32,690 nt of DNA from a virus. Of this stretch, positions 17,645 through 32,455 are shown in pieces. The position numbers were made by a program, and so were the translations under genes. Where the stretch lies: the IMG/VR virus record IMGVR_UViG_3300021602_000017, positions 1-32,690 of that record; one strand, given 5' to 3'. Within the stretch, counting starts at the first letter, position 1. Each line of letters begins with the position of its first letter. The notes beneath the pieces are model-generated. The model saw nothing but the letters and a program-made list of their open reading frames with translations. It was not told the DNA's origin and made no database searches.

Positions 17645-18961
17645 GTGGCAGCAGTAGACTTTCCAAATTCACCAACAGTAGGATATATATATACAACTGG
17701 TGATATATCTCGTAAATGGGATGGAACAACTTGGTCAGTTATTGCTACAACTATTACAGGTCCAACTGGTGCCACAGGTCCAGAAATTCTAAGTGCAACA
17801 AGTCCAATACTTTGGGATTCTGGAACTAGGATATTATCTTTTGCTGGACTAAATTCTATTCTTCCAACACAAACCTCAAATGCAAATAAATTTTTACAAA
17901 CAAATGGATCCACAACATCTTGGGCAGATGCAGCAGTATCAATAACAAATGATACATCTACAGCAACTACTCTATACCCATTATTTACTTCTAGCACATC
18001 TGGAACAATAACTGCTGCAAGTGTTACATCATCTAAGTTAAAATATACTCCAAGCACAGGACTTTTAGAAACTTCTGCTATAACTACTACTGGTGCTTTG
18101 ATAGTTGGCGGAGATTTAACAGTCAATGGAACAACAACAACTATCAATGCTACAACTTTAACAGTAGATGATAAGAATATTGAATTAGGCTCTGTAGCAG
18201 TACCTTCAGATGTTACAGCACAACTTGGAGGAATTACTCTTAAAGGTGCATCAGATAAAACTTTTCAATGGACAAGTACTGGTTCAAATTGGGCTTCATC
18301 TGAAAATCTTGATTTAGTTACTACCAAAGTTTATAAAATAAATAACGTTGAAATTCTTTCTGCTACAAAAGTTTTGGGTATAACTCCAACAATAAATGCT
18401 ACTGGATTTACGTTATCTGGTGGTACAACAGCAGTAGCCGTTACATTTGCTGGTGGAGCAGCATACACTGTTTCTGGTACAAATGCTCAAACATATACAA
18501 TGCCAACTGCTGGTGGTACACTAATAACTGGTTCATCTCCAACAATTACTACTCCTCAACTTCAACTTGAAACAACTGCAAGAACTACAGAAGGTTCTGT
18601 GTATTGGGATTCTACGTATGATATTTTGAAAATTGGAGATGGTACTGCTGCGGTATCGTTTTACCCATTTAATATTAATGCTACAGCAAAAACAGCAGCA
18701 TATACATTAACAACAACTGATTATAATACTCTAGTACAGATGAATGGTGCATTTGCATTTACAATAAACACCTCACTTTCAGCAGCACCTGCTGGAACAC
18801 AGATAAACCTTTTGGCTCTTACTGCTGGAGTCTCTGTAACTGTTACTGGAATAACTGTTTATTCTACACCAGGATTAAAATTAAGAGCACAATATTCTGC
18901 TGCAACCTTAATATGTCTTGCATCAAATGTTTGGCTTTTGACGGGAGATCTAAGTGCTTAA
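17645..18961 (+). CDS. Fibre protein with short collagen-like segment, GTG start
   Basis: The 438-residue product begins AAVDFPNSPTVGYIYTTGDI and SRKWDGTTWSVIATTITG, an N-domain often found on fibres, followed by the collagen-like GPTGATGP (39-46). It then has a segment DLTVNGTTTTINATTLTVDD and KNIELGSVAVPS, common in T4-type and cyanophage fibres, and a C-terminal beta domain. GTG at 17645 is the start. The collagen-like stretch is a possible proline-hydroxylation substrate, of interest because of the hydroxylase genes downstream. Confidence 0.7.
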   Translation: MAAVDFPNSPTVGYIYTTGDISRKWDGTTWSVIATTITGPTGATGPEILSATSPILWDSGTRILSFAGLNSILPTQTSNANKFLQTNGSTTSWADAAVSITNDTSTATTLYPLFTSSTSGTITAASVTSSKLKYTPSTGLLETSAITTTGALIVGGDLTVNGTTTTINATTLTVDDKNIELGSVAVPSDVTAQLGGITLKGASDKTFQWTSTGSNWASSENLDLVTTKVYKINNVEILSATKVLGITPTINATGFTLSGGTTAVAVTFAGGAAYTVSGTNAQTYTMPTAGGTLITGSSPTITTPQLQLETTARTTEGSVYWDSTYDILKIGDGTAAVSFYPFNINATAKTAAYTLTTTDYNTLVQMNGAFAFTINTSLSAAPAGTQINLLALTAGVSVTVTGITVYSTPGLKLRAQYSAATLICLASNVWLLTGDLSA

Positions 18962-18967
18962 TCTTAA

Positions 18968-18976
18968 TGGTATAAT
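18968..18976 (+). promoter_or_regulatory. Extended -10 promoter, fibre genes
   Basis: TGGTATAAT begins 7 bases past the stop of the 17645-18961 gene. Unlike the leaderless cases it has a leader of about 20 bases with AGAAAGAGG before the ATG at 19000. Confidence 0.65.
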
Positions 18977-18999
18977 AAATAGACAGAAAGAGGACAATC

Positions 19000-19353
19000 A
19001 TGGCATTCCCAGGTACATATAATTTTAACTACTACGTTGGTGATACATATCAATTTAGAATTTATCCAAAAGATGCTGATGGAAATACATTCTCTTTAGA
19101 TGCTTATACTTCTGCAGCATTTACTATAGCCAACAAACGTGGTGGTGGTGCAGGGGTAACACAAATTAATGCAACTGCAGAAATTGACACTACAACAGAC
19201 TCAGTATTATGTACTATATCACCAACAAAAGGAAGAAATCTAAATGCTGGAACAACATATGTATATGATATTCAAATAACAGATAATATTAATATTTACA
19301 CATTATTGACTGGAACAATTACACCAACAGCAGAGATTACTGGAGCAGTTTAA
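19000..19353 (+). CDS. Ig-like virion structural protein
   Basis: The 117-residue product begins MAFPGTYNFNYYVGDTYQFR and has the order VGDTYQFRIYPKD, LDAYTSAAFTIANKRGG, LNAGTTYVYDIQIT and a last TLLTGTITPT. This beta-sandwich pattern matches the 10700 and 11199 products, and resembles BppU-type baseplate N-domains. It likely bridges tail and fibre. AGAAAGAGGACA supplies the ribosome site. Confidence 0.65.
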   Translation: MAFPGTYNFNYYVGDTYQFRIYPKDADGNTFSLDAYTSAAFTIANKRGGGAGVTQINATAEIDTTTDSVLCTISPTKGRNLNAGTTYVYDIQITDNINIYTLLTGTITPTAEITGAV

Positions 19354-19924: not shown

Positions 19925-21880
19925 ATGACACAAGATATTGGTGGCGTATATGTTACACAAATTCCTGCTTTAACTGATAATGCAGATATTCAAGAAGCAT
20001 TTAGACTATACCACTACGGAGCATCTACAGGTGTCTATAATAAAGATAATGAAAATCCAGATTTTCTTTTACAAAACTCAATTGCTGGTTATTTAAATAG
20101 TCTTCAAAATCAAATTGATACAGTAAGTGGTACATTGGGTGTACAAACTTCACAATGGTCCTCTAAAGGTTCATTAGTTACTGCAAAAACATCAGGATTA
20201 GGAGTAGAAGTATATACTTTGCCAGTAGGCTTAACTAATGGAATGGTTTTAACAGTAAAATCTGCTTCAGCAAATGGAGCAGGTATTGAGTGGCTTGCAC
20301 CAGATGTATTATCAGATAATACAGTTACTCTTTCTAATAAAACTTTAACTGCTCCAAAATTTGGCTCTAGTGGATACATAGCAGATAATCTTGGACTACC
20401 ACTAATTTCTTTTCCTGCCACAATTTCTTCAGCAGTTAATGCTATAACAATTTCTAATGCTACAACTGGAAATAAACCAAGTATTGCAGCAACTGGAACA
20501 GATACAAATATAACCCTTAATTTAATTTCAAAAGGAACAGGAACTGTACAGATAAATGGTAGTGATATACCAACATTAGCAGGAGTTCAAACATTTACTA
20601 ATAAAACTCTTACAAGTCCAACAATTACAAACCCAACAGTTTCAGGACTATATATTTCTGATTCAAACATTGTTTTTGAAGGTACAACTGCAGATGCATA
20701 CGAAACAACTTTAACTGTTATTGATCCTACTGCAGCAAGAACAATTACCTTACCAGATATTAGTGGAACTGTAATTACTACTGGAAATCTTACAGGAATT
20801 ACTTCTACTGGAACTATTACTTCTGGTGCTTGGAATGGTTCAGGAATTGCTACTTCATATGGTGGTACAGGACTTTCATCATTTACCGCAAATGGAGCAG
20901 TCTATGCTTCGTCTACTTCTGCATTAACTACTGGAACGCTACCTGCAATTTCGGGAGGGACTGGACAAGCATTATATACAGTAGGAGATATTCTATATGC
21001 TAATACAACAACTACATTAAATAAACTTTCACCTACAACTAATGGATATCTTTTAACCCTTGTTGCAGGAGTTCCTGCATGGGCAGCAGCACCAGTATCC
21101 CTTCCTACACAAACTGGTAATGGTGGTAAATATCTTACAACAGATGGAACTACCGCTTCTTGGGCAATTATTGCTGCAGGATATACAGCACCTACACTTG
21201 GAACAACACTCCTTGTTTCTGGAACAACTATTTCAAATGTTGCGGGACTAACAATCAATTCAACAACTATTCCAACAAGTGGTGGAACAGCATTAGTTAC
21301 AGGAAATACTGGAATTCAAAATGTTTCAGGTAGTGTTGTTGATCATTTAACAACAAATGCACAGATTGCCTCATATTCTCTAGTCCTTGCTGATGATGGA
21401 AAATTAGTTGAGACAAATGTTGCTACTGCAAACAACATTACAGTTCCATTAAGTTCAGCACAAGCATTTCCAGTTGGAACTCAAATTAATATTTTACAAA
21501 CAGGTGTGGGACAAACAACAATAGTTCCAACTGCAATTACAACAGCAACATATTCCTCTGGAGGTGCAGCAGCAGCAACCACAGTAGTTATTGCAGCAAC
21601 AAATGCAGCAATTTTGGCAGGACAAAAAATAACTGGAATAGGATTTGCAGATAATGCCTATGTTGTAAGTGTATCTACTACTACAATAACATTTTTTCCT
21701 GCAGCAACTTCTCAAATTTCAGGAACATTAACATTTAGCATTCCAGTTTTTGCAACACCAGGATTAAAACTAAGAAGTCAATGGTCATCTGCTACTTTAA
21801 TTAAAAGAACTGCAGATTCAAGAACCTCTACAAATTATTCTCTTAATACTTGGGTATTAATAGGAGATCTTATAGCATGA
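19925..21880 (+). CDS. Tail-fibre protein with T/S/G-rich body
   Basis: The 651-residue protein begins MTQDIGGVYVTQIPALTDNA and DIQEAFRLYHYGASTGVYN, the N-domain typical of a set of phage fibres. Its body repeats ...LSNKTLTAPKFG..., ...FTNKTLTSPTITNPTVSG... and TSYGGTGLSS, ISGGTGQALYTVGDILYA, and it closes with a hydrophobic beta domain. GGGAG precedes the ATG. The end overlaps the next gene by ATGA. It is the last fibre before the Hint-domain protein and may interact with it. Confidence 0.75.
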   Translation: MTQDIGGVYVTQIPALTDNADIQEAFRLYHYGASTGVYNKDNENPDFLLQNSIAGYLNSLQNQIDTVSGTLGVQTSQWSSKGSLVTAKTSGLGVEVYTLPVGLTNGMVLTVKSASANGAGIEWLAPDVLSDNTVTLSNKTLTAPKFGSSGYIADNLGLPLISFPATISSAVNAITISNATTGNKPSIAATGTDTNITLNLISKGTGTVQINGSDIPTLAGVQTFTNKTLTSPTITNPTVSGLYISDSNIVFEGTTADAYETTLTVIDPTAARTITLPDISGTVITTGNLTGITSTGTITSGAWNGSGIATSYGGTGLSSFTANGAVYASSTSALTTGTLPAISGGTGQALYTVGDILYANTTTTLNKLSPTTNGYLLTLVAGVPAWAAAPVSLPTQTGNGGKYLTTDGTTASWAIIAAGYTAPTLGTTLLVSGTTISNVAGLTINSTTIPTSGGTALVTGNTGIQNVSGSVVDHLTTNAQIASYSLVLADDGKLVETNVATANNITVPLSSAQAFPVGTQINILQTGVGQTTIVPTAITTATYSSGGAAAATTVVIAATNAAILAGQKITGIGFADNAYVVSVSTTTITFFPAATSQISGTLTFSIPVFATPGLKLRSQWSSATLIKRTADSRTSTNYSLNTWVLIGDLIA

Positions 21881-22803
21881 CTCCAATAATCCCTGGAATT
21901 ATTGCATCATCAGATGGACATCAACCAGGTACTCCAATTATTGTTTCAGCAACTGCTCCAACTGCTACTACTGCTACCGTTAATTTTACTGCACCCACAT
22001 ATTTAGGCAAGCCTGCTGGAACATCCTATACTGCAACATCTTCTCCAGGAGCACTTACAGGAACAGGAACAGGAACACCAATTACTGTTTCTGGCTTAAC
22101 ACCATCTACAGCCTATACATTTACAGTTACACTTAGCAATGGTGTTGGAACTTCTTTGGCAAGTGGAACAGCATCTGCAACAACACCTGCAGCAGGTCCA
22201 TTCTTCCCACCATTCTTCCCATTCTTCCCATTCTTCCCACCTGCATTCCCATTCTTCCCATTCTTCCCACCTGCATTCCCATTCTTCCCATTCTTCCCAC
22301 CTGCATTCCCATTCTTCCCATTCTTCCCACCAAAATTTGCTCAAAAGTGTATTCATGGAGATGCAAGAGTTCTCACTACAAGTGGATATATGGCTGCAAG
22401 AGATATCAAGGTCGGAGACAAATTGTTAACAGTAAGTGAAAATAGTATGACAAAAATAACTCCAACATTCCACGATATGTCAATATCTAATAAGATTGAA
22501 TTTGTAGAAGTAGAAGTAACAACTAATAATATAAGTCAAGAAAAACTAATTAAGTTTAATAATACTTTAGACAAGTTCTCTTTACATCAGCCAATATATG
22601 TAAAGACTGAAAATGGAATTGATTGGAAGCCAACTGGAGAAGTTATGTTGGGAGATGTTCTTGTCAATGTTAACTCAGAGTCTGGAAATATTTCATATAC
22701 AATTGTAGAGAATATTGAAATATTTGATGCTGAAAATGTTTATGAAATTAGAACAACCCCACTCCTCTGGTTTATTGTAGGAAATTATTTAGTAGTATCT
22801 TAA
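21877..22803 (+). CDS. FN3, Phe/Pro-repeat and Hint (intein-like) protein
   Basis: The start at 21877 (MTPIIPGIIASSDGHQPGTP) overlaps the previous stop by ATGA. It has 308 residues. A fibronectin-type III domain (about 20-105; SGLTPSTAYTFTVTLSNGVG) is followed by a Phe/Pro repeat (109-152) and a Hint domain from Cys158: CIHGDARVLTTSGYMAARDI then KVGDKLLTV, the first block of hedgehog/intein self-processing domains. The C-terminus (VYEIRTTPLLWFIVGNYLVV) is like the last Hint block, but lacks the terminal His-Asn. Cleavage or ester formation at Cys158 is possible. Followed 1 base later by the methyltransferase gene. Confidence 0.8.
   Translation: MTPIIPGIIASSDGHQPGTPIIVSATAPTATTATVNFTAPTYLGKPAGTSYTATSSPGALTGTGTGTPITVSGLTPSTAYTFTVTLSNGVGTSLASGTASATTPAAGPFFPPFFPFFPFFPPAFPFFPFFPPAFPFFPFFPPAFPFFPFFPPKFAQKCIHGDARVLTTSGYMAARDIKVGDKLLTVSENSMTKITPTFHDMSISNKIEFVEVEVTTNNISQEKLIKFNNTLDKFSLHQPIYVKTENGIDWKPTGEVMLGDVLVNVNSESGNISYTIVENIEIFDAENVYEIRTTPLLWFIVGNYLVVS
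22201..22332 (+). repeat. In-frame 30-base repeats coding PPAFPFFPFF
   Basis: Three tandem copies of a 30-base unit encode PPAFPFFPFF, flanked by degenerate FFPPFFPFF. Phe and Pro alternate, an unusually hydrophobic linker between the FN3 and Hint domains. Confidence 0.85.
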
Positions 22804-22804
22804 T

Positions 22805-23434
22805 ATGGATTCATATATTTCTAGATGGGAAAATGATCCCATGTTTATTGACTTAAACGGTAGATACAATAAAATTCATGGTATTGACAATAAACTTAAT
22901 ACTGCCTTTATTGGAAGACTTTACATATTAAGACAATTAGCAAAACAACAACTATCAAAAAATAGTAATTTTGCAGAATGCGGAACTTATGCTGGAATGT
23001 CAGTGCATTTTGTAGCAGATATTTGTAGTCAAAGATTTATTGGTATAGATTCATTTGAAGGAGTTTCAGAGCCTGGACCAAACGATACAGAATACTTTAA
23101 AACATTAAAACTTGCAATACCGCAAGAAATTGCAGAAAAAACAATGCAGTCACATAAAAATGTAGAACTATACAAAGGATGGATTCCAGAAATATTTAGT
23201 ACAATCGATAGTTTAGAATATTCTTATGTTCATATTGATGTTGATTTATACGAACCAACAAAAAATTCTATAGAATATTTTTGGCCTAAACTAATTAACG
23301 GAGGTGTTTTAATTTGCGATGATTTCGGATCTTATAAAACAATAGGAGCAAGAAAAGCAATGTTAGATTTTTTTAAACAGGATAATATTTTAGAATTGCC
23401 AACTGGACAAGCCATAGTATATAAAAATGAATAA
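22805..23434 (+). CDS. TylF/MycF-type methyltransferase
   Basis: The 209-residue protein has the Rossmann-type blocks FAECGTYAGMSVHFVADI (57-74), GIDSFEG (80-86), YVHIDVDLYEPT (141-152) and LICDDFGSYKT (169-179), which define the TylF/MycF macrocin O-methyltransferase family. These are SAM- and metal-dependent and methylate hydroxyl groups of sugars; here the substrate is unknown. Its start is 1 base past the Hint gene stop, and its end overlaps the radical SAM gene by 8 bases. A second family member lies at 24955. Confidence 0.75.
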   Translation: MDSYISRWENDPMFIDLNGRYNKIHGIDNKLNTAFIGRLYILRQLAKQQLSKNSNFAECGTYAGMSVHFVADICSQRFIGIDSFEGVSEPGPNDTEYFKTLKLAIPQEIAEKTMQSHKNVELYKGWIPEIFSTIDSLEYSYVHIDVDLYEPTKNSIEYFWPKLINGGVLICDDFGSYKTIGARKAMLDFFKQDNILELPTGQAIVYKNE

Positions 23435-24413
23435 ATATTTAATTAAAGCCGTACAAATTGATGTTAATGGATTATGTAATGCAAAGTGTTGGTTTTGTCC
23501 TGTTGCTTATGTAGGAAATCCTAAAGAAGCAATTAAAGATATGTCTTTATCGGATCTTGAAAATATTTTAAAACAATTACAAGAAGGTAAAGGAATTTTT
23601 GTAGATCCCTCACTAAATATTGTTTATACTGCAAACTATAATGAAGTTTTGCTTTACAAAAATTTTGAAGGGATGCTAGATTTATATAGAAAGTATAATT
23701 TTAAAATTAATATACTTAGTAATGGAATAGCCCTTACTAAATCTAAAGTTGACCTACTAGTTAAAAATATAGACATTATAAATGAAGTTCTTTTAAATAT
23801 TCCTTCAGGAAATGAACAGCGTTGGTCAGAGTATACAAATATGAATCAATCTTTATTTAAAAAGGTTGTTGCAAATGTAAACTATGCATTTAAAAATCTT
23901 AATACACAATTTAGAATAATGGTTAATGGGCTAGATGATAGATCAATAACAGAAAATGGTGGCTGGGTAGACCTTTTAGAAAATACACCCAAGTTAAACT
24001 TAAGTATTGAAGATGGTTCTCTTAAGGCTGAAATTTTAGAACTTCAAGAACTTTTTCCTGGAGTTAATATATTTGAAAATTATCACCTATATGATCGTGC
24101 AGGACATTTAGAAGATTTAAAAATTCTTAGTCAATCAAAAGCAATTAATAAATATTTGTCAAACCCAGATTTAAAGGTTATAGGATGCAATGGTGGGATT
24201 GGTGTACGGGATAGAACTAGAGAGTGGATTCATATTAATCCTAACGGAGATTTATTTATTTGTTGCAATGACTATGATTTTAAAACTATTTATGGAAATA
24301 CCAATAAGGCAACTTTAGAAGATATTTGGAATAGTAAGAATAGATTAGAAATGATTAATAAATCTTATTCTGATCTGTGCACTAGATGCTCTGCTGCAGT
24401 TTGGGGTAAATAG
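23427..24413 (+). CDS. Radical SAM protein with SPASM-like C-terminus
   Basis: The 328-residue protein has VNGLCNAKCWFCPVAYVGNP (C17-x3-C21-x2-C24), the 4Fe-4S ligand motif of radical SAM enzymes, right after an N-terminal strand. The C-terminal part has GCNGGIGV, INPNGDLFICCNDYDFKTIYG and CTRCSAAVWGK, the outline of a SPASM-type second cluster domain (GD...C...G....A.LEDIWNS). SPASM proteins often modify peptides. Substrate unknown. It overlaps the upstream methyltransferase by 8 bases. Confidence 0.75.
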   Translation: MNKYLIKAVQIDVNGLCNAKCWFCPVAYVGNPKEAIKDMSLSDLENILKQLQEGKGIFVDPSLNIVYTANYNEVLLYKNFEGMLDLYRKYNFKINILSNGIALTKSKVDLLVKNIDIINEVLLNIPSGNEQRWSEYTNMNQSLFKKVVANVNYAFKNLNTQFRIMVNGLDDRSITENGGWVDLLENTPKLNLSIEDGSLKAEILELQELFPGVNIFENYHLYDRAGHLEDLKILSQSKAINKYLSNPDLKVIGCNGGIGVRDRTREWIHINPNGDLFICCNDYDFKTIYGNTNKATLEDIWNSKNRLEMINKSYSDLCTRCSAAVWGK

Positions 24414-24440: not shown

Positions 24441-24974
24441 ATGAAAGCATGTGTAATATCTTTAAATTTAAGTAAGGGCTTGGTTATTAAGTCACATCTA
24501 GAAGAAAAGTCTATACCCTTTAAATATTTTTATGATTTTAATGATTCAAAACTATCAGTCTATCCAGAAACTACTCAAGGAATTCACGACTATATAGATT
24601 CTATTTATGAAGGCAATGATGTTTTTATTGAATTCCCCATGGCTTTTGAATATCAGTATATGTATCAAAAAGATAATGATACAAAGTTTGTATATGTAAA
24701 TATAGATAAAGTACAATGGATAGAAGCAATGAATAGTCTAAAAGCATATCCTTTTGAATCTGCGCCATATCCTTTTGAAGAGTATTTTTGCAAAAAATAT
24801 CTAAATACAGATGTTGCAGAAATTGCAAACCTAACAAATGAAGATTTATCTGAAATATACGATGCACATGTTTTGGCAGTTGATACTTTTTTTGCAAATA
24901 ACTCAAACTGTATTAAAATAGACATTGATAATCCATTGTTTTTTGAGATTTTTGATGAATTCTTATCAATATAA
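24441..24974 (+). CDS. Sulfotransferase-like remnant, uncertain
   Basis: The 177-residue protein begins MKACVISLNLSKGLVIKSHL without the P-loop (GxxKTGTTS) of sulfotransferases. Yet the region YVNIDKVQWIEAMNSLKAYP (about 90-110) and SEIYDAHVLAVDTFFANNSN (about 138-158) followed by IDIDNPLFFEIFDEFL resembles the C-terminal half of the family. It may be a degenerate or non-catalytic member. The next gene starts inside its last 20 bases. Moderate to low confidence in the family. Confidence 0.35.
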   Translation: MKACVISLNLSKGLVIKSHLEEKSIPFKYFYDFNDSKLSVYPETTQGIHDYIDSIYEGNDVFIEFPMAFEYQYMYQKDNDTKFVYVNIDKVQWIEAMNSLKAYPFESAPYPFEEYFCKKYLNTDVAEIANLTNEDLSEIYDAHVLAVDTFFANNSNCIKIDIDNPLFFEIFDEFLSI

Positions 24975-25593
24975 CCCAGAATTAGATAAAGATTTTTTTC
25001 AAGTTATTTCTGATTGGTGGCCAAATGATGATGTATCTTTATTATTTAAAAATCCAATGTATGATAGATATTATATTATGTGGAAGTATTCTAAATTAAT
25101 ATCAACTCTTGAAGGTGATTTTGTAGAGTGTGGAGTCTATAATGGAAGCACTGCAAATATTATGGCTACAAACTGTAATAATACTTTGCATTTATTTGAT
25201 TCTTGGGAAGGTCTATCTGAATTAGGACCATATGACAATGCAATATATGAAGACTTAACTTTTGGATTTACAGATTATAAATTTAAATACGAATTTAAAA
25301 AAACAAAGCAGAATTTAATAAAACATGATAACATTAAATACTACAAAGGTTGGATTCCAAAAGTATTAAATCTTGATACAAAAATATCATTTTTACATTT
25401 AGATTTAGATCTTTATCAGCCAACAAAAGACTGTTTAGAATATTTTTGGGAAAAAATAATTGATGGTGGCATAGTCTTGTGTGATTTGCACAATGAAGTT
25501 TCTACAGGAGCCTCAAAAGCAACAAAAGATTTTTTTAGTAATTTAAGAGATATAAAAGTTTTATCAACAGGTCAAGCAATAATTAAAAAATAG
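24955..25593 (+). CDS. Second TylF-type methyltransferase
   Basis: The start at 24955 (MNSYQYNPELDKDFFQVISD) is preferred, since the earlier ATG at 24925 would lengthen the overlap with the previous gene. The 212-residue product has FVECGVYNGSTANIM (56-70), LHLDLDLYQPT (147-157) and VLCDLHNEVSTGA (174-186), the same family as the 22805 product. An SAM-dependent O-methyltransferase is likely; substrate unknown. Ends 7 bases before the GuaB-like gene. Confidence 0.7.
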   Translation: MNSYQYNPELDKDFFQVISDWWPNDDVSLLFKNPMYDRYYIMWKYSKLISTLEGDFVECGVYNGSTANIMATNCNNTLHLFDSWEGLSELGPYDNAIYEDLTFGFTDYKFKYEFKKTKQNLIKHDNIKYYKGWIPKVLNLDTKISFLHLDLDLYQPTKDCLEYFWEKIIDGGIVLCDLHNEVSTGASKATKDFFSNLRDIKVLSTGQAIIKK

Positions 25594-25600
25594 GAGGAAA

Positions 25601-26659
25601 ATGATAATTAACCTAACAACAAGCAATTTGTGTTTTGATGATATTTTGCTAGTTCCAAAACAATCTAATATTAAAAGTAGAGCAAACATATCATTGTCTT
25701 CAACAATTGGAAATCTAAATAATCCAACTGCATGGATTAGTCTAGGAATTCCTGTTATGACTGCACCAATGGAATTTATAAATAGTAATGAAATGATTAT
25801 TAAAATAATAGATCATGGTGGAATGGCCTTTATAAATAAATTTCAAAATGATGAAAAAAGATTTAGTCAGTTTAAATCTTTGCCAAATAGAATAAAAGAC
25901 TTAAATCGTTTAGGTTTTGGAATAGACCTAGATGAAGCCCAAAATGCTGAATTTATTAATAAAGTTTTATCTTATGGGGTAAAGACTTTAGTTATTGATA
26001 CCGCATTAGGTCACTTGGAAATGGTTGTTGAAGTAATTAAAAACTTAAGATCTCGTATTCCAAACAATATTCATATTATGACAGGGAATGTTTCTTCGTA
26101 CGAGGCATATAAAAATTTAATGGACTCTGGTGCAGACTCAGTAAGAGTTGGTATTGGTGGAGGGGCTGCCTGTATAACTAGAATTGTAACAGGTTTTGGG
26201 GTACCAGTTTTAGCGTCTGTTATGGACATATACAAGCATGTTCAAAACGATATAGTAAATGGAATAGTTTCTGATGGTGGTATTAAGGCAAATGGAGATA
26301 TAGTTAAGGCTTTGGCAGCAGGGGCATCAGCAGTAATGATTGGCAGCATGTTTGCAGGGCATGAAGAATGTGATAGGCAAAGTGATGGTAGATTTTTATT
26401 TCGTGGTCTAGCATCTGAAAGTATTAAGTTAGATCCAGTTAATGGAATTGCCACAGGTGAAGAAATACATCATATTGAAGGCGTATCTGGCTATGTTGAA
26501 AATAAAGGTAGCATAAAAAAAACACTTATGGGCATAACTGATAATCTTAAAAGTGGCTTATCTTATTGTGGGTCAGAAGACTTAATATCATTTAAAAAAG
26601 ATGTTAGTTTTATTCAAGTTTCTTCAGAATCTTTAAAGGAGTCTAGGAGTAGGATATAA
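25601..26659 (+). CDS. IMP dehydrogenase/GMP reductase-like protein
   Basis: This 352-residue protein has the family blocks FDDILLVPKQSN (12-23), PVMTAPME (51-58), VIDTALGH (131-138), TGNV (161-164), GIGGGAACITRIVTG (184-198) with catalytic-type Cys191, and VSDGGIK (223-229) plus GASAVMIGSMFAG (241-253). No CBS domain is present, so it is GMP-reductase-sized. Gly-Gly-Ala at the loop replaces the usual Gly-Pro-Gly-Ser. Phage nucleotide pool control is likely. AGGAGG precedes the ATG. A weak inverted repeat follows. Confidence 0.75.
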   Translation: MIINLTTSNLCFDDILLVPKQSNIKSRANISLSSTIGNLNNPTAWISLGIPVMTAPMEFINSNEMIIKIIDHGGMAFINKFQNDEKRFSQFKSLPNRIKDLNRLGFGIDLDEAQNAEFINKVLSYGVKTLVIDTALGHLEMVVEVIKNLRSRIPNNIHIMTGNVSSYEAYKNLMDSGADSVRVGIGGGAACITRIVTGFGVPVLASVMDIYKHVQNDIVNGIVSDGGIKANGDIVKALAAGASAVMIGSMFAGHEECDRQSDGRFLFRGLASESIKLDPVNGIATGEEIHHIEGVSGYVENKGSIKKTLMGITDNLKSGLSYCGSEDLISFKKDVSFIQVSSESLKESRSRI

Positions 26660-26739: not shown

Positions 26740-27411
26740 ATGTGGGATAAAATAGAAACGCTTGCTCCAGGAATTTTTGTTTATAGAAATAACATAAAAC
26801 AAGAATTGGATATAATCAATAGGCTAGAAAATGTTTTAGATGATCTTGCACCATATGGTGAAATATCTAAAAATGGAAAACCATATCATTGGCTGCCAGC
26901 ATATGTCGGGTATCAACAACTTATGCCAGAATATCGGGACTGTAATGATTTTAAATTTAAAAAAACAGATATAGAACATGATACTAGTGAAGAGTCAATA
27001 AAACTACAAGGAATTTGGCAAGACTGCTACGATCCTCAAAAAAAGGCAGTAGATGATTATTGTCAAAAATTTAATATTATGGAATTAAGATATTGGGAAG
27101 CATTTAATTATATTCGTTATCGCCCAGGACAACACTTTATGGAGCACCATGATCATGGATTTTCATATAATTGTACAGTTTCTTTAGTCTCATATTTTAA
27201 TGATGACTATGAAGGTGGTGGACTTTATTTTAGGCTTCAAGGAATTACCTATCAACCAAAAGCAGGAGATACAGTAATTTTTCCTTCTAACTATATGTAT
27301 CCTCATCAAGCATTACCTGTAATTTCTGGAACCAAGTATTCTCTTGTAACAATGTTAGATTATAGTAATAAATACCATAAACCAGAAATGTATCAGGAAA
27401 CAGGAGAATGA
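26740..27411 (+). CDS. 2OG/Fe(II) oxygenase, P4H type 1
   Basis: This 223-residue protein belongs to the prolyl 4-hydroxylase-like family. The Fe(II) ligands H136-x-D138 lie in FMEHHDHGF, distal His189 in YMYPHQALP, and Lys199 in SGTKYSLVTMLD takes the place of the 2-oxoglutarate-binding basic residue (Lys, as in P4H proper). A preceding EAFNYIRYRPGQ is the usual first strand. It resembles the gene at 28172 most, both followed by a DUF6065-like gene. It overlaps the next gene by ATGA. Confidence 0.8.
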   Translation: MWDKIETLAPGIFVYRNNIKQELDIINRLENVLDDLAPYGEISKNGKPYHWLPAYVGYQQLMPEYRDCNDFKFKKTDIEHDTSEESIKLQGIWQDCYDPQKKAVDDYCQKFNIMELRYWEAFNYIRYRPGQHFMEHHDHGFSYNCTVSLVSYFNDDYEGGGLYFRLQGITYQPKAGDTVIFPSNYMYPHQALPVISGTKYSLVTMLDYSNKYHKPEMYQETGE

Positions 27412-28175
27412 GTACATTAGTATCTTTTATTTCAAACAGACCTGGGCTAACAAAACAAAGTAAGTCTGTTCCACTTCCAATAATCAAAACAATTCCAGAT
27501 TGGTATAGAAAAGCAGATCGTTTTGCTAAAATGCCAAATGGAGAATACTATAAAGCAAATAGTCAAATATGTCCAGTAACAAAAGAAGGAACAACTGATG
27601 ACTATGGAAAAATTCCTACATGGAAAGCATGTCCAGCAATTTTTGATATTATGGGTACTGGATATTCTTTAAACACTCCATGTGATTTAGAGTTTTTTAT
27701 TAATGATTCTGGAACTATAGATTGCAAAGTATTAGATAAACAGTTTGAAGATTTTATTCAACAAAGAGCACCTATGGCACAATTTGTTACACCACATGGA
27801 TATCATGATTATCATTTTGCATTTTGGGTGCATTGGAACATAGTACTTCCAGAAGGTTATAGCGCAATATATATGAGTCCAGCAAACAGATATGAACTTC
27901 CTTTTATAACTAGTCAAGGAATAGTTGATAATGATAGTGTCAATATCTCTGGAACTTTTCCATTTTGGGTTCGTAATAATTTTGTAGGAGTTGTTCCAGC
28001 AGGAACTCCATTTTCTCAGATAATTCCTTTTAAAAGAGAAGATTGGAAATCAGAAATAATTATTGAAGATTATAATAAAATGTATAAAAAAAATGTAAAC
28101 AATTCTGAAAAATATCGTGTTCCAGATGGTGGAGTGTATAAAAATGAAATATGGAAGCAAAGGAAATATGAATGA
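27408..28175 (+). CDS. DUF6065-like protein 1
   Basis: The 255-residue protein has CPAIFDIMGTGYSLNTPCDL, and later FAFWVHWNIVLPEGYSAIYM, and NNFVGVVPAGTPFSQIIPFK, like the DUF6065-type outline 'CFP.....G.GY.....D.EF.W.....G.....T....L....P.N....PfpFtmnW.i..P...I..G.P...IiP'. The relative at 28904 shares it. Function unknown, but such proteins occur next to oxygenases, so a substrate-binding partner is possible. It overlaps both neighbours by 4 bases. Confidence 0.55.
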   Translation: MSTLVSFISNRPGLTKQSKSVPLPIIKTIPDWYRKADRFAKMPNGEYYKANSQICPVTKEGTTDDYGKIPTWKACPAIFDIMGTGYSLNTPCDLEFFINDSGTIDCKVLDKQFEDFIQQRAPMAQFVTPHGYHDYHFAFWVHWNIVLPEGYSAIYMSPANRYELPFITSQGIVDNDSVNISGTFPFWVRNNFVGVVPAGTPFSQIIPFKREDWKSEIIIEDYNKMYKKNVNNSEKYRVPDGGVYKNEIWKQRKYE

Positions 28176-28903
28176 TAAATAGTTGGACAGATTTACCTAG
28201 ACTAGAAATAGAGTCACAACGTTTATCCAATATAGATATTGGAAACGGTATAGTTGCAATTAATGCTGGCTATGGAATAAATATCTACCGCAATGCAATT
28301 AAAAAAGATGAATGTCAAAATATTATCAATAGTTTAGAAAATGAAATTGCTCTTAATATACCTGGCATTACTTGGCGTGGAGCACAGGTAAATGATACAC
28401 AAGACAATGACTATGTAAGAAATTGTGTTGATCTTAAATATAAAAAAGAAGATTTGGGAGTAGGACTTCCACTTAATCAAACATTAAGTGCTGTACACGA
28501 CAGTGTAGAAAAAAGTTTAGATCAATGTTTAAAACATTATGAAAGTTTATGGCATTTAAAAATGCACTATAAAGAAGCATTTAATTTTGTAAAATACAAT
28601 CCAGGGAAATACTTTAAAATTCATGCAGACCATGGTCCGTATTATGCATGTACTATTTCTGCTGTAGCATACTTAAATGACAATTATATTGGTGGAGAGT
28701 TAAGTTTTGTAAGACAGGGATTAACAATTAAACCAGAAGCGGGAGATATTATTTTATGTCCTTCTAATTTTGTTTATGAACATGCATCACTTGAAATTAT
28801 ATCTGGAACAAAATATTGTGTTGTAATGATGACTGACTATAATGATTTACATCATCAACCAGAATCTTATGATTATAGTAGAATTTCTGTAGGAAAGTAT
28901 TAA
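28172..28903 (+). CDS. 2OG/Fe(II) oxygenase, P4H type 2
   Basis: The 243-residue protein has EAFNFVKYNPGKYFKIHADH (H151-x-D153), distal His204 in FVYEHASLEI and Lys214 in SGTKYCVVMMTDY. Its residue order is nearly the same as in the 26740 product (EAFNYIRYRPGQHFMEHHDH and SGTKYSLVTMLDY), so the two are duplicates. It overlaps the previous gene by ATGA, and the next gene starts just after its stop. Confidence 0.8.
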   Translation: MINSWTDLPRLEIESQRLSNIDIGNGIVAINAGYGINIYRNAIKKDECQNIINSLENEIALNIPGITWRGAQVNDTQDNDYVRNCVDLKYKKEDLGVGLPLNQTLSAVHDSVEKSLDQCLKHYESLWHLKMHYKEAFNFVKYNPGKYFKIHADHGPYYACTISAVAYLNDNYIGGELSFVRQGLTIKPEAGDIILCPSNFVYEHASLEIISGTKYCVVMMTDYNDLHHQPESYDYSRISVGKY

Positions 28904-29638
28904 ATGTCAGATATAACTGTATATAAAAGAAAAGGTCACAGAGTTAAACTTGAACAAACAAAAGTTCAAAGAGACTGGATGGATCAAACAACAGATCATC
29001 ATGCATATAAATGTTTTCCAATGTCATTAGTAAATGGTATTGGATATTCAATTTCATTTTTAGATGATATAGAATTTGTTTGGGATGGTATTTCTGATAA
29101 TTCTGAAGATCATGTTAAAATTATTAAATCTGGTTTTAATGTATGTAATCTTGCAAGAGGAAATGCAACTATTAGTTTTAATACTGAATTATGGTTTAAA
29201 ACAGATGAAAACACAAGTCTTTTATCTATAGCACCACCTAATCATTTTATTGATGGAGTTATACCTTTTACAACATTAATATCAACATCATTTTATGAGT
29301 TCCCATTACCAGTAGCATGGAAAATAACAAAACCTAATCAAAATATTATAATTCCAGCAGGAACACCAATCATTACAGTAATACCAATTTCTTTAAAAGA
29401 GTTAACTCAAAGAAAATTAAATATTTATGATAAAACACATGATCCAGATGAAAATAAAAATAATCAAGAAAAACTTAAAGTGTTAATGAAAATGAGAAAC
29501 GAGGGAGAATATCATACTCACTGGTACAGAGATGCGGTTAATTATAAAAATGAAAAACTAGGAGATCATGAATTAAAAAGCATTAAACTAGAAGTTAATG
29601 ATTTTACTAGTGATAATTTTGGATTTAACAATGAATGA
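28904..29638 (+). CDS. DUF6065-like protein 2
   Basis: The 244-residue protein has YKCFPMSLVNGIGYSISFLD and DIEFVWDGISDN, then RGNATISFNTELWFKTDENT, IAPPNHFIDGVIPFTTLIST and PLPVAWKITKPNQNIIIPAG, the clear DUF6065 outline. Its partner is the 27408 gene. Function unknown. It overlaps the next oxygenase gene by 8 bases. Confidence 0.65.
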   Translation: MSDITVYKRKGHRVKLEQTKVQRDWMDQTTDHHAYKCFPMSLVNGIGYSISFLDDIEFVWDGISDNSEDHVKIIKSGFNVCNLARGNATISFNTELWFKTDENTSLLSIAPPNHFIDGVIPFTTLISTSFYEFPLPVAWKITKPNQNIIIPAGTPIITVIPISLKELTQRKLNIYDKTHDPDENKNNQEKLKVLMKMRNEGEYHTHWYRDAVNYKNEKLGDHELKSIKLEVNDFTSDNFGFNNE

Positions 29639-30386
29639 AGAACAACTATGGTTTAATAAAGAAAAAATAATACTAGAAAACAATGATAGTATTTTTATTA
29701 AAAAAATAAAAAACCATGAATTTAATTATATCAAAAATGAAAAAAATAATAAAATAGTTGAAATAAAAGATATTGTATCAAAAGATTTTTCTAAAATAAT
29801 TATACAGAAATCTGAAGAAATGAATGGTTGGAAAAAAGTTGGATTTCATAAAGCAGAAGTTTTAGAACAAGTAAATAATGTTGGGGAAAAAAATGATATG
29901 TTTTCAAATTGTATAAAAGAATACATGGAAAATGTCAAGGCTATTTTCAATAAAATATACAATAAGCCTGTAATTTTTAAAAGTATATATATACAAAAAT
30001 GGCCTCCAGGGTCATATGGATTGAAACATAACGATACTCATAATCTTGATGGTAGTCCAGGTTTTATAGACTGGAAACTTTCTGTTTTGTTATATTTGCA
30101 TAGTGATTTTGTAGGTGGAAAATTAGAATTTCCTGATCATAACATTTCGATTGTTCCAAATCAAGGATCAGGATATTTTTTTGAAGGTGGTCCACAAAAT
30201 GAACATCAAGTAACAACCATTGAAACTGGACTCAGATATACAATAGTTTCTTTTTGGGATTTTGAAGATTCTGTTTATGACAAAAATGATATTTTAACAT
30301 TAAAAGAAAATGAAAAAAAATGGGCAGAATACATGAAGAATAAAAATTTACAAATAGTAGCAGAAAGTGATATAATTAAAAAATGA
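29631..30386 (+). CDS. 2OG/Fe(II) oxygenase 3
   Basis: The start at 29631 (MNEEQLWFNKEKIILENNDS) is chosen because it overlaps the upstream stop as TGA; an earlier ATG at 29598 would give a hydrophobic tail. The 251-residue protein has YIQKWPPGSYGLKHNDTHNL (H133-x-D135), distal His192 in NEHQVTTI and Arg202 in TGLRYTIVSFWD. Here Arg, not Lys, contacts 2-oxoglutarate. It overlaps the next gene by ATGA. Confidence 0.8.
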   Translation: MNEEQLWFNKEKIILENNDSIFIKKIKNHEFNYIKNEKNNKIVEIKDIVSKDFSKIIIQKSEEMNGWKKVGFHKAEVLEQVNNVGEKNDMFSNCIKEYMENVKAIFNKIYNKPVIFKSIYIQKWPPGSYGLKHNDTHNLDGSPGFIDWKLSVLLYLHSDFVGGKLEFPDHNISIVPNQGSGYFFEGGPQNEHQVTTIETGLRYTIVSFWDFEDSVYDKNDILTLKENEKKWAEYMKNKNLQIVAESDIIKK

Positions 30387-31057
30387 AACCTTTAGATGCA
30401 ATTGAAGTAAAAAGAACTCCATCACTAACCCCGTCTGGGTTTTTTGGTAATGATAAAAATATGATTGTAGAGTTAGAGAACTTTATGACTCAAGAAGAAA
30501 TAGACTTTTTAGAAAATGCAGCAAGAAATATAACTATTTGGGATGTTACAGAATCTCATATGAATGAAAATGGAATAGTTGTATATGATGCTAATTATTG
30601 GAAAGATAGGGTTTGCACAACCCCTTCTTTAAATAAAAATGATATATCAATTGCTCCAGTGCTTGAAAGATTGTTTGAAAGATTAAAGCCCATTATTGAA
30701 GAATTTTATAGTGTAAAAGTAAAACCAACTGGAACTACAATTGTCAGATGGCTCCCTGGACAATTTCAAAATCCACATGCCGACAAAGAACTTCATGAAG
30801 GACCAGATGCTGGACTGCCAAATGATTTTCCCAACTATGATCTTTCAAGTTTATTTTATTTAAATGATGATTACGAAGGTGGAGAGTTATACTTTCCATT
30901 ACAAGGAGTACAGTTTAAACCTAAAAAAGGAGCAGCATATTTTTTCCCAGGTGATAAAAATTATATTCATGGTGTAACAGAAATTAAAAAAAGCATTAGG
31001 TATACCTGTCCATTTTTCTGGGAAATTTTAGAACATACAGGAGAAAGACAGCCATAA
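30383..31057 (+). CDS. 2OG/Fe(II) oxygenase 4
   Basis: The 224-residue protein has IVRWLPGQFQNPHADKELHE (H132-x-D134), YLNDDYEGGELYFPLQGVQF, distal His196 in NYIHGVTEI and Arg206 in KSIRYTCPFFWE. All catalytic ligands are present. Its N-terminus (about 26-60) has the ELENFMTQEEIDFLENAAR start seen across this group. The stop and next ATG share one base (TAATG). Confidence 0.8.
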   Translation: MKPLDAIEVKRTPSLTPSGFFGNDKNMIVELENFMTQEEIDFLENAARNITIWDVTESHMNENGIVVYDANYWKDRVCTTPSLNKNDISIAPVLERLFERLKPIIEEFYSVKVKPTGTTIVRWLPGQFQNPHADKELHEGPDAGLPNDFPNYDLSSLFYLNDDYEGGELYFPLQGVQFKPKKGAAYFFPGDKNYIHGVTEIKKSIRYTCPFFWEILEHTGERQP

Positions 31058-31803
31058 TGAATAAAATTAGATATACAGAAGATATAGTTATATATGAAAA
31101 TTTTTTAACTTTAGAAGATTCTACAAAAGTTATTCAAGTATTAAATAAACAATTTGAGTCTAAAAAACTATCATGGACTCCAATATCTTTTTATGAATCA
31201 TATTCTTCTGTTTTACCACAAGATAATGATCCAGAACTAGAAGAGTTTGGACTTGCACCAACATTCTTTTCAGATTTAAAATCTAAAATTATAGATGCAG
31301 TTGCTTCAGTTCATGGACTAGATTCTAAAACTATTTCTCAGATTGGATATCATACTCAAAAATGGGAACCAGGAGCATATGCAAGAATTCATTCAGATAA
31401 TACTGATGAGCATGGCAATACGGGTCCATTTGCAAGAAGTAGGTATGCTGCATTTTTATATTTAAATGATGACTTTGATGGGGGTCTTCTTAAGTTTCCT
31501 AAACAAGACTTAGAAATTCAACCAAAAACTGGGATGCTTGCTGCATTTGATGGTGGTTTTAACAATATGCATGAAGTTACATTAATTAAAAGTGGAGTAA
31601 GGTATACGCTAGGCTCTTTTTGGGATGATAGAGAAGAAGACTCCTATTCACAAGAAACAAGAGATCTTTGGGCTGAAGAAATGAAAAGAATAAGAGAAGC
31701 CCAATTAGTTGAAAAAACTGAGTGGCAAGACTTACTTAAGCAAGGCTGGAAAATAGATGAAGAAGGAAATAAATATAAAACTGAAGAGATTCCAGATGCT
31801 TGA
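31057..31803 (+). CDS. 2OG/Fe(II) oxygenase 5
   Basis: The 248-residue protein has GYHTQKWEPGAYARIHSDNT (H112-x-D114), YLNDDFDGGLLKFPKQDLEI, distal His172 in NMHEVTLIK and Arg182 in GVRYTLGSFWDD. The C-terminal 60 residues are charged and helical. It overlaps the next gene by 8 bases, starting MLEKF from an ATG in its last codons. Confidence 0.8.
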   Translation: MNKIRYTEDIVIYENFLTLEDSTKVIQVLNKQFESKKLSWTPISFYESYSSVLPQDNDPELEEFGLAPTFFSDLKSKIIDAVASVHGLDSKTISQIGYHTQKWEPGAYARIHSDNTDEHGNTGPFARSRYAAFLYLNDDFDGGLLKFPKQDLEIQPKTGMLAAFDGGFNNMHEVTLIKSGVRYTLGSFWDDREEDSYSQETRDLWAEEMKRIREAQLVEKTEWQDLLKQGWKIDEEGNKYKTEEIPDA

Positions 31804-32455
31804 AAAATTTAAAGAAAATCTTATAGCAAATAAATTTGCATTTGAAGAAGTTACAGACGAGATTATTTGGATTAAGAATTTTTTTACAAAAGATGATTTA
31901 AATTTTGTACTAAAAGCAATAGGTGAAGCAACTCAATCAGACTGGGAAATAGAATATATGGGTAATTTAAAAAACTTTTGCATGCAAAAATTTGGCAGAG
32001 ACGATGTTGATAATCTTGTTGCTGAAGGAAAATTTGAAATTACACAAAACTGGGTAGATAAAAATTTAAATATACAACATCACAAAGAGTATAAAGTGTT
32101 TTATGAAAGACTTTTTAAAATGATTGATAGTTCAGACCCATCTTTAGTACTAAGTGGCGTTGCTACAATTCAAAGAATGCAGCCAGGAGTTGAGTTAAAG
32201 TCTCATACTGATCAACATACAGACCCTTCAATACGGTATGCAACAATTATTTATATAAATGACGACTACGTAGATGGAGAATTGTTTTTTCCAAAACTAA
32301 GTATATCTTTAAGACCAAAGCCAGGAGATTTATTATTTTTCCCAGGAGATGAAAATCATGAGCATGGAGTAAAACATGTAAAAGAAGGTCCAATAAGGTA
32401 TGTTATAGTTGGTTTTATAAAAGAAAGAGATCATTACAAGAATAATAAATACTAA
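31796..32455 (+). CDS. 2OG/Fe(II) oxygenase 6
   Basis: The start at 31796 (MLEKFKENLIANKFAFEEVT) is preferred, since the earlier ATG at 31757 lies deep in the previous gene. The 219-residue protein has IQRMQPGVELKSHTDQHTDP (H137-x-D139), YINDDYVDGELFFPKLSISL, distal His190 in NHEHGVKHV and Arg201 in GPIRYVIVGFIKE. All catalytic ligands are present. It is the sixth complete oxygenase in the row; a further gene follows after 14 bases. Confidence 0.8.
   Translation: MLEKFKENLIANKFAFEEVTDEIIWIKNFFTKDDLNFVLKAIGEATQSDWEIEYMGNLKNFCMQKFGRDDVDNLVAEGKFEITQNWVDKNLNIQHHKEYKVFYERLFKMIDSSDPSLVLSGVATIQRMQPGVELKSHTDQHTDPSIRYATIIYINDDYVDGELFFPKLSISLRPKPGDLLFFPGDENHEHGVKHVKEGPIRYVIVGFIKERDHYKNNKY

Follow-up and report, generated by a model that had tools for sequence, protein, structure and literature searches.

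In inteins the first step around Cys1 uses Thr B:7, His B:10 and Asp F:4, and we know of no characterised Hint domain with Gln at B:10. No intein residue is described as more conserved than His B:10, and just two inteins were then known without it, one of them a pseudogene; the natural intein Tko CDC21-1 lacks this His and is still active, and the F:4 Asp assists Cys1 deprotonation (PMC4031507). A bulky residue at position -1 rescues the N-S shift when the block B His is missing (PMC6333167), and B-type BIL domains, which are without the C-terminal motif, undergo N-terminal cleavage (PMC7765530).

The DNA studied here (the window) is the entire 32,690-base virus record IMGVR_UViG_3300021602_000017, and all features given below lie on its + strand. 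Positions 21877–22803 are an open reading frame for a 308 amino acid protein in which a fibronectin type III (fn3) domain, a Phe/Pro repeat and a Hint domain follow one another. Its ATG at 21877 has a GGAG at 21863–21866, 10 nt upstream, and overlaps the stop codon of the tail fibre gene directly upstream (19925–21880; phrog_38058, E = 1.4e-11) in a 4-nt ATGA; its own stop ends at 22803 and the next gene, the first enzyme, starts 1 nt beyond it. The fn3 domain (residues 23–96; 21943–22164) is a member of Pfam PF00041 (E = 1.8e-5) by a score of 25.3 bits, barely over the gathering cut-off of 25, and many phage contigs carry fn3 domains that are 50–65% identical to it. The Phe/Pro tract (residues 108–153; 22198–22335) is 91% F or P and includes exactly three copies of PPAFPFFPFF, at residues 121, 131 and 141 (22237–22326); the DNA encodes it as 4.5 tandem copies of a 30-bp unit, with a 97% match. 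The Hint domain (residues 158–308; 22348–22800) ends where the protein ends. This arrangement, with the same gene limits, fn3 domain, three repeat copies and Hint, had been proposed in the first-pass annotation, and the open reading frame, the Pfam match and the repeat count bear it out. The close relatives of the protein all come from uncultivated contigs, and no isolate with the same full Hint protein gene was found among 50,697 phage records.

Single-sequence Pfam matches of the window Hint are sub-threshold or weak (PT-HINT, 0.0017), and a search with its sequence alone gave no confirmed relatives. The family profile matches the solved BIL domain 2lwy of C. thermocellum at 1.5e-10, and an AlphaFold model made with 27 family members in the input (pLDDT 91, pTM 0.83) matches inteins, BIL domains and hedgehog in the PDB at TM 0.6–0.8, the PhoCDC21-1 intein being the best match. 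The structure prediction that the first-pass annotation had called for thus bears out its Hint assignment, and by model and profile match together the protein from Cys158 onward is a genuine and complete Hint fold. The best viral matches to the model are A0A6J5MFV5 and A0A6J7WKC1 in BFVD (TM 0.8), proteins of uncultured Caudovirales named as fibronectin type III or Hint domain containing proteins that share the fold but are 24% identical to the window protein and are known by their names only, without function or linkage. We note that no bacterial-genome relatives of the Hint of L069 were confirmed.

The Hint family was compared in a set of 65 distinct sequences from viral contigs and two jumbo phages. 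The N-terminal nucleophile of the Hint superfamily is present as Cys158 (22348–22350), which is Cys1 of the Hint and the sole cysteine of the protein; it is Cys in all 65 members, where mean column identity is 37–38% and, apart from Cys1, Asn71 alone never varies. Because there is no second Cys, an intramolecular disulfide is excluded as its role. Block B of the window Hint is FSLHQP (22576–22593), with Ser at B:7 (22579–22581) and Gln at B:10 (22588–22590; Ser78 and Gln81 in Hint numbering) replacing Thr and His, so that it departs from the Thr-x-x-His that roughly one in three family members has. The His visible in this motif is one residue off and was rejected as the block B His, since relatives with FTETHP, FTAEHP or FTHEHP align the Gln to B:10. 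Position B:10 is His in 25 of the 65 sequences, Gln in 39 and Glu in one, and in nearly all of them Thr at B:7 is paired with His and Ser with Gln. On a Hint tree computed without the columns for B:10 and the other scored sites, at least five state changes map to B:10, one of them a reversion to His in L003 and L174. Since nothing other than His, Gln and a single Glu occurs there, Gln at B:10 is, as judged from the alignment, a conserved and switchable state of the family and not random decay. The dN/dS values of close Hint pairs in the window's clade are mostly 0.03–0.35 (those of distant pairs are saturated). The two loci with the reverted His each carry two tandem Phe/Pro-Hint genes (L003:5956-7866 and L174:1836-3733), still without His-Asn.

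At its C-terminus the window protein reads LVVS and stops, and has neither the His-Asn nor the following Cys/Ser/Thr of an intein terminus. As it has no His-Asn and no C-extein, splicing, already thought unlikely in the first-pass annotation, is ruled out on sequence grounds. By parsimony the C-terminal His-Asn was lost once, in a group that includes the window's well-supported clade of 29 (99/95), and the best explanation is that the window Hint descends from intein-like Hints ending in His-Asn. The window has Glu at block F position 4 (F:4; 22744–22746), and this position is Asp or Glu in 30 of the 30 family members without His-Asn versus 2 of the 35 with it, a difference that is essentially one event on the tree and so lies beyond any statistical test of coupling.

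These features suggest that in the window's clade the C-terminal reaction is gone and only the N-terminal chemistry would be retained. Cys158 would attack the carbonyl of Lys157 in an N-S acyl shift aided by Gln B:10 and Glu F:4, and the resulting thioester at Lys157-Cys158 would then be hydrolysed or be hit by another nucleophile; such cleavage would free a Hint of roughly 16 kDa and leave an fn3-Phe/Pro part like that of the relatives without a Hint. Given the activity of an intein lacking this His, the part played by the F:4 Asp, the effect of the -1 residue and the behaviour of B-type BIL domains in the literature cited above, N-terminal cleavage is plausible as predicted chemistry, and we put self-cleavage at the Hint N-terminus at a little under an even prospect. 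The cleavage at Cys158 suggested in the first-pass annotation has its candidate nucleophile in Cys158, conserved in all 65 sequences, and stays possible but is weakened because the block B His and Thr that it presumed, and whose lack it had named as counting against it, are missing from this protein. The -1 residue in the window is Lys, and the idea that bulk at this position makes up for Gln was judged unconvincing, since a bulky -1 residue is present in 31 of 39 Gln forms and also in 15 of 25 His forms. Homologues without a Hint (for example L018, L019 and L032) end directly past the Phe/Pro tract, where cleavage would cut, and this likeness to the predicted product was counted in favour of cleavage; it fits a swappable tip as well, as other relatives carry a Cys-rich tail at that place. 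The Hint could instead be catalytically dead and serve as a folded tip that binds a receptor or partner or caps the Phe/Pro rod, with Cys158 making an intermolecular contact. We regard this as possible though doubtful: the replaced block B residues, the lost His-Asn, the occurrence in related proteins of Cys-rich or short tails where the window protein has its Hint, and the one divergent relative (L214, beyond the 65-sequence set) that has no Cys1 would all fit it, but a dead domain accounts poorly for the constancy of Cys1 as the only cysteine of the window protein, for a B:10 position held to His or Gln without drift, and for an acid gained at F:4 along with the loss of His-Asn.

Among the described systems, the BIL domains of the A and B types are similar to the window Hint in being free-standing Hints in variable proteins, with Cys1 and no homing endonuclease. 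In having lost the C-terminal motif the window Hint resembles the B type, and relatives ending in His-Asn-Lys resemble the A type; of the B-type motifs, the window Hint has Cys1 and block F and a substituted block B. Unlike BIL domains, it lies in a phage tail protein behind a Phe/Pro rod, has Gln at B:10 and is the end of its protein. The class 1 mini-inteins of the CDC21-1 group, some of which have no block B His, share the fold, but the window Hint has no C-terminal His-Asn and no C-extein and does not splice. The hedgehog Hog domain has the same fold (1at0, TM 0.68–0.76), the same C-terminal position, an N-terminal Cys and no terminal Asn; it differs in being an animal and not a phage domain, with the block B Thr and His and the sterol-recognition region that the window protein lacks. 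A hedgehog-style ester transfer was also raised in the first-pass annotation; taken more widely, an ester, amide or thioester transfer would couple the fn3-Phe/Pro part covalently to a second virion protein, to an amine on the host surface or to a lipid. The retained Cys1 and lost C-terminal reaction are the combination seen in hedgehog and B-type BIL domains (PMC7765530), and hedgehog ranks with the best fold matches; the protein, however, stops at the last Hint strand, with no sterol-recognition or other acceptor-binding domain after it, and as we read alignment A1 there is no conserved acid before block B comparable to the hedgehog activating Asp. We found no specific support for such transfer, because the protein ends with the Hint, and consider it improbable.

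The collagen-like-Hint proteins of Erwinia and Yersinia jumbo phages (e.g. YP_010302233) likewise combine a repeat rod with a Hint close to their C-terminus and are annotated as virion structural proteins; unlike the window protein they have collagen-like repeats, retain both the Thr/His block B and His-Asn, and continue in a short tail past the Asn. These genes are L083:2014-3456 and L084:2017-3459, with collagen-like repeats, a canonical Hint with His-Asn and a short tail. A literature search found no description of them and no published phage tail protein that ends in a Hint. From the tail fibre gene upstream and the annotated relatives, the window protein is very probably located in the virion or tail, where it would be a small tail adhesin in which the fn3 domain is followed by the Phe/Pro tract as a stiff rod and, optionally, by the Hint at the C-terminus.

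Downstream of the Hint protein gene lie a TylF-type methyltransferase (A, 22805–23434), a radical SAM/SPASM protein (23427–24413), a possible sulfotransferase-like protein (24441–24974; PF17784 at a sub-threshold E of 0.005) and a second TylF-type methyltransferase (B, 24925–25593), all assigned from Pfam. These are followed by a complete gene of the IMP dehydrogenase/GMP reductase family (IMPDH; 25601–26659; E = 9.8e-74), which thus sits inside the tail/modification cluster and in L001 directly follows a Hint gene. Beyond it are six 2OG-Fe(II) oxygenase genes, OG1 (26740–27411), OG2 (28172–28903), OG3 (29598–30386), OG4 (30383–31057), OG5 (31057–31803) and OG6 (31757–32455), with the DUF6065-related X1 (27408–28175) and a DUF6065 protein (28904–29638; E = 4.4e-31) among them. 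All six products keep the HxD...H iron site, those of OG1 (HHD...H) and OG2 (HAD...H) have a Lys at +10 as the basic 2OG residue, and with Pfam PF13640 over its cut-off they belong to the 2OG-Fe(II) oxygenases. By sequence OG1 is related to procollagen lysyl hydroxylases (1e-6) and to prolyl 4-hydroxylases (0.002), and among the 50,697 phage records it has only weak cyanophage matches; OG5 has prolyl 4-hydroxylase (6e-6) and prolyl 3-hydroxylase 1 (4e-5) as its nearest solved relatives. The cassette shares with the procollagen lysyl and prolyl hydroxylases these sequence matches, the HxD...H motif and the Lys of OG1 and OG2, and differs from them in being phage-encoded, in having six paralogues and in its putative non-collagen Phe/Pro substrate. 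The X1 AlphaFold model is confident (pLDDT 92), with weak PDB matches to a dUTPase-like beta fold, and X1 has distant homologues in haloviruses; DUF6065-like halovirus matches were rejected, as the one examined adjoins thymidylate synthase and no repeat protein.

The enzymes are linked to the Phe/Pro repeat. In the 80 loci closest by whole-protein similarity, found mostly through the fn3 part, oxygenases occur in 22 of 27 loci with a Phe/Pro repeat and in none of 53 without one; after dereplication the 2OG-Fe(II) oxygenase/DUF6065 cassette is present in 12 of 14 repeat loci versus 0 of 32 repeat-less ones (Fisher p 2e-9, a value that overstates independence because the loci share ancestry). 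Conversely, with OG1 alone as the query, a Phe/Pro-repeat protein is found in 50 of the 50 loci that have at least 2.7 kb upstream (26 clusters at 90% DNA identity), at a median of 2.0 kb from OG1. It is normally the first gene of the cassette, the usual order being repeat protein, OG2, X1, OG1, DUF6065, OG4, OG5, OG6, with several rearrangements; a few of these loci share the window's methyltransferase/rSAM/IMPDH insert, and the window's structural genes g19000 and g19355, two and three places upstream, occur in just one of the 50. The 65 repeat proteins of the OG1 set have Hint-type tips in eight cases (one divergent and without Cys1), Cys-rich tips in 37 and short or other tips in 20, which indicates by gene comparison that the Hint is one of several optional tips. 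As most of the linked repeat proteins have no Hint, the most likely target of the cluster is the Phe/Pro repeat rather than the Hint; the earlier proposal that modifying this protein could be the purpose of the enzyme cluster thereby gains strong support from linkage for the repeat, and none for the Hint. Most repeat proteins without a Hint (L188-L203, L237-L264) end in a conserved Cys-rich tail, for example CSGCTRNYCWQACPACCGHCGC, which may be a tip module. In loci of the L085-L108 type, which belong to one phage group, there is a Phe/Pro-Hint gene at each end of the cassette (e.g. L087:9170-10504 and 18237-19157).

We propose that the downstream 2OG-Fe(II) oxygenase cassette would hydroxylate the Phe/Pro rod, most likely on proline, and from linkage and homology we think this probable, if far from assured. 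The gene and the cassette might instead be mere neighbours in one syntenic phage block, with the cluster acting on DNA, nucleotides or host metabolites. The IMPDH, radical SAM and methyltransferase genes in between point that way, as do the cyanophage oxygenases: the 2OG-Fe(II) oxygenase of cyanophage ACG-2014d lies among metabolic genes with no adjoining Phe/Pro-repeat protein, and for such cyanophage enzymes a part in setting 2OG levels or in DNA repair has been proposed (PMC3037559). Conserved synteny within one broad phage group could also account for the linkage. Mere neighbourhood is nonetheless rather unlikely in our estimate, since the linkage holds in all 50 OG1 loci with enough upstream sequence, over 26 DNA clusters with shuffled gene orders, other structural neighbours are unlinked, none of the 32 dereplicated fn3 loci without the repeat has the cassette, and procollagen hydroxylases are the closest relatives of solved structure.

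Oxygenases of the 2OG-Fe(II) type are common in phages and, to our knowledge, have no demonstrated role there; for one family of them, the one-to-one linkage to a short and chemically simple Phe/Pro repeat points to a definite substrate that can be tested. Our best explanation of the locus as a whole, a tail adhesin with an N-terminally self-cleaving Hint and a Phe/Pro rod hydroxylated by the cassette, seems to us nearly as likely to be right as wrong. The Hint family, in which His and Gln alternate at the residue described as most conserved in inteins and the C-terminal reaction disappeared a single time, lends itself to testing how much of the Hint active site the N-terminal chemistry needs. 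We suggest tentatively that a widespread uncultivated phage group may have a dedicated protein-modification system, in which a Phe/Pro-rod adhesin would be hydroxylated by its own collagen-hydroxylase-like cassette and would carry exchangeable tips, one of them a splicing-incompetent Hint that, with Gln standing in for the near-universal block B His, would detach itself or attach the rod covalently. If true, phages would have a counterpart of hydroxylated collagen and extensin.
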